Shown: positions 3,602 to 43,882 of the stretch, piece after piece
Numbering within the stretch: the stretch's first letter is position 1
Layout of the letters: the number at the start of each line of letters is the position of its first letter
NCBI RefSeq assembly: GCF_014647115.1
Contig: NZ_BMOO01000001.1
Location: 62,001 to 126,000 of the forward strand
From: Halarchaeum rubridurum
GTDB taxonomy: Archaea > Halobacteriota > Halobacteria > Halobacteriales > Halobacteriaceae
Length of the DNA: 64,000 nucleotides
Direction of reading: 5' to 3'
The notes under the pieces: generated by a model
Seen by the model: only the letters and a program-made list of their open reading frames with translations
The model's database searches: none
Told to the model about the DNA's origin: nothing
Translations under genes and position numbers: made by a program

Positions 3602-3790
3602 TACCCCGTAGTTCGCCACGCGCCCGGCAAAACGATGCCGGTGCGGTCGGCAGTGCGTCAGGCGGAGGCACGCGTGAGCGAGAAGACACGCGAGCGTGCA
3701 CGGGCGGGCGTGCCGCGAGACGGGCGTCGACGGCGGACGCGAAATACGGCGACGCGACGGGCGCCGTCGTCTGCCGACGCAGCCACCCAC

Positions 3791-42497: not shown

Positions 42498-43244
42498 ATG
42501 AGCGACACCGACACCGCGGACGACCTCGCGATTCGCGAACCGCCGACGGTGCTCGTGCCCGTCGAAGTGCTCGAAGGGGAGTCGATCAGCGAGTCGCTCG
42601 CGGCGTTCCTCGCGCCCGCGCGCGTCGTCGTCCTCGGCTACCACGTCCTCCCCGAGCAGACGCCGACGGAGCAGGCGAGCATGCAGTTCGAGGACCGCGC
42701 GCGGGAGGCCGTCGCGGACCTCGCGGCCGTCTTCGAGGGCGCGGGCGGCGGCGTCGAAACGCGCGTCGCGTTCACCCACGACCGCGAGCAGACCGTTGAG
42801 CGCGTCGCGAGCGAGGTCGGCGCGACGGCCGTCCTCCTCCCGAACCCCGTCGGGGCGGTCTCGGACGTCCTCGTTCCGTTCCGCGGCGCAATCGACCGCG
42901 ACCGTCTCGCGGACCTCGTCGCCACGCTCCTCGCCGAGGGCGACGGGACGGTGACGCTCTGGGGCATCGAGCGCGAGGGGTTCGACGCCGCCGGGACCGT
43001 CGAGCACGCCCGCGAGAGCCTCCGCGAGCGCGGCCTCGACGCCGCACGCATCGCGAGCGAGACCAGCGCCGCCGAGTCGCCAATCCACGACATCGCGGTG
43101 CGCTCCGCCGACTTCGACGTCATCGTCATGGGCGAGGGCGAGGAGTCGCTCTGGGCCGCACTCCTCGGCGACGACCCCGAGCGCGTCGCCGAGAACGCGG
43201 TCGCGCCCGTGCTCGTCGTGCGCGAACGCGAGGACGGCGCGTAG
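42498..43244 (+). CDS. Universal stress protein (UspA family) paired with the permease
   Basis: 248 residues, longer than a single Usp domain. The first half has TVLVPVEVLEGESISESLAAFL and the second ends VIVMGEGEESLWAALLGDDPERVAENAVAPVLVVRERE, which includes a nucleotide-binding-like glycine region. Translation likely follows the permease stop directly, so it probably regulates transport. Nucleotide binding is inferred from the family. Confidence 0.87.
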   Translation: MSDTDTADDLAIREPPTVLVPVEVLEGESISESLAAFLAPARVVVLGYHVLPEQTPTEQASMQFEDRAREAVADLAAVFEGAGGGVETRVAFTHDREQTVERVASEVGATAVLLPNPVGAVSDVLVPFRGAIDRDRLADLVATLLAEGDGTVTLWGIEREGFDAAGTVEHARESLRERGLDAARIASETSAAESPIHDIAVRSADFDVIVMGEGEESLWAALLGDDPERVAENAVAPVLVVREREDGA

Positions 43245-43639
43245 TCGCCGCGAGCGGGCGGGGGACTCCGGCTCCGGAGGGACACGGGCGAATCGACGCC
43301 GCTCCGGGGCCGATGGCGATGGCTCGTGGGCGAACAGGTGCGAGTCGGCGAAGCTGACGCTCACGAACGGGAGAGATGTGCTGCCCGGAACACTAACGAC
43401 CGGCCTCATCCCGGGGCGGCGTGCCGCGTCAGCCGGGAAACCCTCGTGCCGGGCAGGATCGCCGCGGGGTCAGTTGGGCCCCGCGGGGGGCGTGACGTGC
43501 CCTACGCGCGCGACTCGCGTCGCGGGTATGCCGCGCGCCCGGGTTCTCCACGCGTCATCGCGCCCGGAGCGGGTGGGCTCGGGTGGGGACTTGAGGCGCG
43601 CGAGAGGACGTAGGGGAGGCGTGCGTTTGAGGGCTACGC
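43245..43639. other. 395-nt gene-free stretch with nested stems (possible RNA)
   Basis: No convincing gene. On the plus strand CTGCCCGG (about 43381-43388) pairs with CCGGGCAG (about 43453-43460), enclosing CCCGG...CCGGG and GCGGC-GT-GCCGC. A second stem CCGCGGGG...CCCCGCGG lies at about 43472-43496. No match to tRNA, 7S or RNase P RNA cores was recognised. Could be a structured RNA or merely GC-rich spacer. Confidence 0.35.
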
Positions 43640-43882
43640 TTACGCCCGCGCGTCGACGTCGCGCGCGTCCTCGTCGAGCTGGTAGACCTGCTCGCGTGTC
43701 TCGCAGACGCCGCAGACGCACTCGGCGTAGCCCGCGTCGGCGAGCTCGGCGAGGGCGTCGCGCGCTTCGTCCTCGTCGATACGGGCCTCGCTCGCCACCT
43801 CGGCGGGCGAGAGGGGCCCACGGTTGTCGAGGACCACGCGGGCGAGCTTCGCGTGGCACGAGAGTTGGACGGTGCCGCTCAT
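43640..43882 (-). CDS. Small winged-helix-like protein with a cysteine cluster
   Basis: 80 residues. LSCHAKLARVVLDNRGPLSPAEVASEARIDEDEARDALAELADAGY is a helix-turn-helix/winged-helix-like pattern, followed by ECVCGVCETREQVYQL with C55, C57, C60; C9 is the fourth cysteine. It may bind a metal or Fe-S cluster and DNA. ATG at 43882 has GTTTTTG about 23 nt upstream. Small conserved haloarchaeal type. Confidence 0.75.
   Translation of the reverse strand: MSGTVQLSCHAKLARVVLDNRGPLSPAEVASEARIDEDEARDALAELADAGYAECVCGVCETREQVYQLDEDARDVDARA

Follow-up and report, generated by a model that had tools for sequence, protein, structure and literature searches.

The gene-free stretch and its stems

Does a 395-nt stretch without genes (43245-43639) in the genome of Halarchaeum rubridurum encode anything, and if so, what? 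The DNA analysed, hereafter the window, comprises 64,000 nt of contig NZ_BMOO01000001.1 (positions 62,001 to 126,000), and all coordinates are those of the window unless stated otherwise. An earlier note, made by inspection of the letters, had described nested stems and a separate stem in this stretch and guessed at a structured RNA of no kind recognisable by eye. The gene-free status of the stretch was confirmed; on the left it is bordered by a Usp-like ORF whose stop is at 43244 (its Pfam Usp match of 22.6 bits falls slightly short of the cut-off of 24) and on the right by a minus-strand ORF of 80 aa with its stop at 43640. At E up to 0.001 this 80-aa ORF has no Pfam match; it is 98% identical to its Halarchaeum nitratireducens counterpart, and its relatives are found in two records each from Halarchaeum and Halobacterium.

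The letters of the stems are present as described, with CTGCCCGG at 43381-43388 and CCGGGCAG at 43449-43456, and with CCGCGGGG/CCCCGCGG at 43462-43469/43479-43486 forming an 8-bp stem with a 9-nt loop, but as evidence from a single sequence they do not exceed chance. The DNA has a G+C content of 74%, at which stems of such size are not rare. Counting exact inverted repeats of 8 bp whose loops measure 3-80 nt, the stretch has four against a mean of 1.9 in dinucleotide shuffles, and at least four were found in 91 of 500 shuffles and in 104 of 319 equal-sized tiles of the window. A search of both strands of the stretch for unusual folding energy found none (z of -0.55 on the plus and +0.69 on the minus strand). 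The region is significant because it is conserved and covaries in relatives, not because of its single-sequence stems.

A predicted two-hairpin RNA on the minus strand

DNA comparison with relatives resolved the stretch into two conserved blocks of ~75 nt separated by far less conserved DNA. On the minus strand each block forms a hairpin followed by an ACA-type box, and a plus-strand reading of the conserved 75 nt was abandoned for this reason. We conclude that positions 43376-43601 on the minus strand almost certainly encode a box H/ACA guide RNA with two hairpins, which corresponds in Halarchaeum to the HP1+HP2 guide of haloarchaea. Its features and context are listed below (L037 is an rRNA locus from a genome of the same genus).

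43640-43882, minus strand: ORF of 80 aa, ending 38 nt upstream of the RNA (context only)
43625-43630, minus strand: TATA-like element TCAAAC, 24-29 nt upstream of hairpin 1 (peak of A+T content in 47 loci at -27 to -24)
43611-43612, minus strand: TA of a putative haloarchaeal -10 (WW) element (A+T of ~0.8 at -10/-9 over 47 loci; positions from PMC3986360)
43376-43601, minus strand: predicted complete H/ACA guide RNA of 226 nt, made up of hairpin 1, linker and hairpin 2 (cmsearch matches of both hairpin models; start set by promoter spacing, 3' end by the ACA box)
43528-43601, minus strand: hairpin 1 (HP1), with lower stem (43601-43595 with 43539-43533), upper stem, K-turn and pocket (R1 match and covariation)
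43588-43590, minus strand: HP1 5' guide GUC, pairing with GAC downstream of the target through 3 pairs only (target scan of L037)
43555-43559, minus strand: 3' strand of the HP1 K-turn, GAU bulge and GA, with partner GA at 43580-43579 (columns invariant or nearly so in alignment A1)
43541-43545, minus strand: HP1 3' guide AACCC, pairing with GGGUU immediately upstream of the target U, E. coli 2586 (target scan of L037)
43527-43531, minus strand: HP1 ANA box, degenerate or shifted, with GCA at the canonical 14 nt and AUA at 16 nt (spacing count)
43456-43527, minus strand: linker of 72 nt with predicted hairpins, including GGGC-ACGUCAC-GCCC (43502-43488) and CCGCGGGG/CCCCGCGG (43486-43462) (inverted-repeat and folding analysis)
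43376-43455, minus strand: hairpin 2 (HP2), with the CTGCCCGG/CCGGGCAG lower stem, which reaches 43456 (R2 match and covariation)
43440-43445, minus strand: HP2 5' guide GAGGGU, pairing with ACCCUC downstream of U1915/U1917 (GAGGGTT in 125 of 127 loci)
43406-43410, minus strand: 3' strand of the HP2 K-turn, GAU bulge and GA, with partner GA at 43430-43429 (sequence)
43391-43397, minus strand: HP2 3' guide GUUAGUG, with a GUUA register for U1915 and a UAGU register for U1917 (GTTAGTG in 127 of 127 loci)
43377-43379, minus strand: HP2 ACA box (sequence and spacing count)

The model R1 (HP1) matches the window with 77.2 bits (E 4.1e-15) and nowhere else in it at E up to 1, and the model R2 (HP2) with 100.8 bits (E 4.6e-23), its runner-up reaching 13.3 bits (E 0.42). 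The guess of a structured RNA was thus correct, while its strand was mistaken, half of the element was missed (HP1 does not figure in that description at all) and its kind is a known one. What had been taken for an outer stem, CTGCCCGG/CCGGGCAG, belongs to the second H/ACA hairpin, whose lower stem it forms, and had been read from the wrong strand; the supposedly separate CCGCGGGG/CCCCGCGG stem is one of the hairpins of the linker.

Compensatory changes across related genomes, which the earlier note had named as a check, are found in both hairpins. Among 47 distinct HP1 sequences 91.5% of cells are paired, and 11 pairs and 94 cells show two-sided change; the corresponding values for 45 distinct HP2 sequences are 97.6%, 8 pairs and 37 cells. 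For either hairpin, none of 500 shuffles matched the real alignment in paired cells, in two-sided pairs or cells, or in covariation score. Slid controls for both hairpins all fell far below the real structures, a control that looks better than it should because the structures were drawn from the same sequences. The number of pair types is unremarkable, being reached by 127 (HP1) and 44 (HP2) of 500 shuffles, and certain drawn pairs are poorly supported (HP1 23-54, unpaired in 42 of 47 rows; HP2 27-54, in 15 of 45). In HP1 and HP2 alike, lower and upper stems covary around conserved pocket strands in the manner of an H/ACA hairpin. Both window hairpins also carry, by sequence, a GAU bulge and tandem G-A, which is the form of a K-turn.

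Conservation of the individual motifs was counted over 127 loci, namely 47 from the DNA search and 80 among the better-scoring HP2 matches listed, such that these counts refer to matches and not to genomes at large. Left out were L031, L032 and L034, which repeat the contigs of L002, L003 and L023, L033, which repeats that of L041, the rRNA loci L035-L038, and the second fetches L057 and L058; L047, on a short contig where HP1 was not found, was kept as an HP2 alignment row and dropped from the HP1 and 127-locus counts. GAACCC is present in 126 of the 127 HP1 loci and the K-turn strand GAUGA, AAUGA or CAUGA in 125, and the 5' GA of the K-turn is missing by simple pattern in 11 of the 127 HP2 copies.

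That the stretch is instead a short protein gene is the least probable reading, and an extremely improbable one: it does contain ORFs, including one of 95 aa (43326-43613, plus strand) and one of 129 aa (43470-43859, minus strand), but its relatives vary in linker length (1-259 nt) and show paired compensatory changes.

Relation to known guide RNAs

Two conserved H/ACA hairpins, HP1 and HP2, with a long spacer between them have been described in H. volcanii and other halobacteria, HP1 guiding Psi2621 and HP2 guiding both Psi1956 and Psi1958 via alternative structures (Grosjean et al., 2008; PMC2584109). The same pair has been named Hvo1/Hvo2, with Blaby et al. (2011) cited for its experimental validation in H. 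volcanii (PMC4652768). By the description of PMC2584109, the window RNA resembles this guide in its two spaced hairpins, in the same 23S sites and in the two HP2 registers. It differs in coming from a new species, with a 72-nt linker bearing hairpins of its own and with AUA at 16 nt and GCA at 14 nt behind HP1. Two hairpins, a spacer and the targets corresponding to H. marismortui 1956, 1958 and 2621 were all identified in the window RNA, and because layout and targets match those of the described halobacterial guide we regard it as a further example of the published kind. The haloarchaeal HP1+HP2 guide corresponds to the later-named sR-h45 of Blaby et al. (2011).

The H/ACA RNAs Pf7/Pab40 of Pyrococcus and Afu4 of Archaeoglobus are reported homologues of the HP1+HP2 guide (PMC2584109). 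As described there, stem III of Pf7 is homologous to HP2 and stem II to HP1, and Pf7 has three hairpins, adjacent in Thermococcales, as against the two spaced ones of halobacteria. The Rfam search named in the earlier note was not productive: no Rfam 15 family reached its gathering threshold over the whole window, nor in six further loci. At a relaxed threshold the best match in 43100-43800 was a trypanosomatid H/ACA family on the plus strand (22.1 bits against a cut-off of 35 bits); Rfam 15 does contain other H/ACA RNAs.

The lack of an Rfam match at gathering and the location of the site between two convergent genes would both be compatible with some other structured element, such as a terminator, a 3' UTR or a regulatory sRNA, that merely resembles an H/ACA RNA. 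We consider this very improbable, since the ANA spacing, the K-turn sequence, the complementarity of the pockets to three published sites and the published guide itself all fit an H/ACA RNA, and since only one of the 127 loci has a T-run of at least 5 lying no more than 40 nt from the 3' end.

Predicted targets in 23S rRNA

A search of the source assembly itself for 23S rRNA gave no match, and L037 therefore served as the target. When the HP1 pocket of the window was compared with every U in L037, the top site was GAGCUGGGUU[U]AGACC with a score of 22 against 14 for the second. A stricter, mismatch-free scan of L037 with the window HP2 placed no U of helix 69 within its eight best sites. In a relaxed scan, adopted after the first had been seen and permitting one mismatch beside the target and restricting registers to 2-4 nt, the window guides ranked U1915 second and U1917 fourth among 563 U's. 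The HP2 pairing is not unique, in that position 4398 of L037 (0-based), a U outside the known sites, ranks first, above U1915, and positions 3725 and 3727, third and fifth, score nearly as high as the two targets. Pairing alone therefore cannot settle the HP2 targets. All three lie in 23S rRNA outside helix 69, and may be further HP2 targets or mere chance. The pocket strands of HP1 and HP2 are thus each complementary to both flanks of a UN dinucleotide in rRNA, for HP2 not uniquely.

The predicted target U's in L037 are at 23S positions 1948, 1950 and 2613, numbered from L037:1501, where the 23S match starts. Pseudouridines of H. marismortui are reported at Psi1956, Psi1958 and Psi2621, equivalent to E. 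coli 1915, 1917 and 2586 (PMC2584109). Each predicted position lies 8 below its H. marismortui counterpart, and this constant offset means that the spacings of predicted and published sites agree. The RNA would very probably guide pseudouridine formation at the three 23S letters.

ANA-box spacing in Halarchaeum

Archaeal ACA boxes are typically found 14-16 nt from the target site (PMC7991803). Measured from the first guide nucleotide, the HP1 ANA box lies at 14 nt in 122 of the 127 loci, at 13 nt in one and at 16 nt in three, the window among the latter; 126 of 127 copies thus have one at 13-16 nt. In HP2 all 127 loci have an ANA at 15-18 nt in the U1915 register (15 nt in 1, 16 nt in 79, 17 nt in 44 and 18 nt in 3), the spacing in the U1917 register being 2 nt shorter. 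The ACA of the window HP2 is 16 nt away in the U1917 register and 18 nt away in that of U1915, the latter exceeding the usual 14-16 nt. At 14 nt in HP1, the four Halarchaeum genomes have GCA in the window, L002 and L003 and ACA in L004; the window and L002 also have AUA at 16 nt. A shifted or lost HP1 ANA box in three of four Halarchaeum genomes, including that of the window, is possibly a new observation.

A refinement of the two-hairpin reading, more than a full rival to it, would be that the RNA is half-decayed in the Halarchaeum lineage, HP2 guiding helix 69 and HP1 persisting as an inefficient relic for U2586. It would account for the GCA of the window, L002 and L003 at the place where nearly all other copies have ANA, and for L003 being the sole HP1 with no ANA at 13-17 nt, given that Cbf5 has been reported as specific for ACA. 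We think such decay unlikely, as the HP1 stem, pocket guides and K-turn are intact, the upper stem has a compensatory CCAC/GUGG change, and the AUA of the window and L002 is inside the archaeal 14-16 nt range (PMC7991803).

Occurrence within and outside the class

Searching with the DNA of the stretch gave matches in 48 of 59 genomes, the source genome included, and in 41 of the 43 of good quality. In a sample of the class, the HP1 covariance model found matches in 193 of 194 genomes (159 of the 160 not previously examined) and the HP2 model in 192 of 194 (158 of 160), one genome (G074) having neither hairpin and another (G202) lacking HP2 only. A sample of the phylum yielded HP2 in 75 of 196 genomes, comprising all 33 inside the class and, with weaker scores, 42 of 163 outside it. 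At 15 places selected by HP2 (14 outside the class and the divergent G036), HP1 was detected in 10 at a threshold of E 0.1, upstream of HP2 with a gap of 0-17 nt. The short gaps outside the class agree with the published account, in which the long spacer is a halobacterial feature (PMC2584109). One genome, G218, has two copies of each hairpin (G218:C1:1714774 and 3469976), and in one genome the guide RNA sits a short distance after the 23S and 5S rRNA genes, on the strand opposite to theirs (L017, 1-1693).

Among 14 IMG/VR loci chosen by two 16-mers, one has a true HP2. This locus (L180), on a contig classed as viral, begins with a linker-like hairpin and HP2 (47-125), and a tyrosine integrase gene (795-1901) follows ~0.7 kb on. 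We make no claim that mobile DNA integrates at the guide RNA: a second copy of the HP2 3' end was sought throughout the 88.7-kb L180 record and not found, and tblastn with the L180 integrase against L001-L034 found nothing.

The linker and sequences behind hairpin 2

Linkers in the 127 loci range from 1 to 259 nt with a median of 40 nt, and are often arrays of GC-rich hairpins, a feature of many genera and above all of Halobacterium. Linkers of at least 30 nt comprise 88 distinct sequences, and 52 of these fold at z < -2 (mean -3.3; 60 shuffles each). In Halarchaeum, z is -1.2 for the window, -1.7 for L002 and -1.3 for L003, none of which is below -2, and -3.5 for L004; by this measure the window linker is weakly structured. 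The 7-mer ACGUCAC is present in 10 of 127 linkers, in 8 of which it is the loop of a contiguous stem of at least 4 pairs, the stems differing. Counting loops of at least 6 nt on stems of at least 4 bp, ACGUCAC reaches a recurrence of 7 distinct linkers, which two other loops equal; the maximum in 200 shuffled linker sets was 5, reached once, and kinship of the genomes inflates the real count. The frequent strong structure in the linker is possibly a new observation. We suggest, with considerable doubt, that the linker is an evolving structural module rather than neutral filler, in which case it could space, insulate or dock two RNPs, or bind another protein. A linker array as a genome-wide repeat was rejected, the longest linker matching once each in three of five genomes, with one match weak and away from the RNA.

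Directly behind HP2, GACC[T/G][T/C]T occurs in 19 of 127 loci (for example L003, L012, L026 and L043), mostly in a CGACCTTTT-like form. Exact copies of a related 15-mer are also present elsewhere in L012 and L013.

Promoter, partner proteins and proposed function

Across 47 right-aligned loci, A+T content before HP1 peaks at -34 to -32 (0.55-0.68), at -27 to -24 (0.94 at two positions) and at -10/-9 (~0.8). H. volcanii promoters have been described with a BRE at -34/-33, a TATA element at -29 to -25 and a WW element at about -10, the positions running from start codons where transcription and translation starts coincide (PMC3986360). The BRE/TATA/-10 pattern in the 47 loci is consistent with transcription beginning at the first base of HP1, and the RNA would probably be transcribed from its own promoter, located directly after the end of the 80-aa ORF at its stop codon.

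Cbf5, Nop10, Gar1 and L7Ae, the H/ACA partner proteins, are each represented in the genome by one match above the curated cut-off; the Cbf5 model has a second match, which is weak and below its cut-off. The Cbf5 match at G000:C1:223928-224794 contains one TGA, perhaps simply the gene end. Each hairpin would be expected to bind L7Ae at its K-turn, Cbf5 through the lower stem and ANA box, and Nop10 and Gar1. Its internal loop would pair with 23S rRNA on both flanks of the target U, placing this U in the Cbf5 active site. HP1 would in this way direct modification of the U equivalent to E. coli 2586 in the peptidyl-transferase centre, and HP2, via its two registers, of the U's equivalent to 1915 and 1917 in helix 69. 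For the window RNA itself, we infer transcription, RNP assembly and modification.

Implications

Small questions open to test arise from the structured linker and from the unusual ANA box in Halarchaeum. Covariance models find the hairpins in nearly all sampled haloarchaeal genomes and Rfam 15 has no match in the window and six further loci, so a curated family would aid annotation. For Halarchaeum, an unannotated intergenic stretch is explained as the probable guide for three ribosomal pseudouridines, all of them functionally placed.
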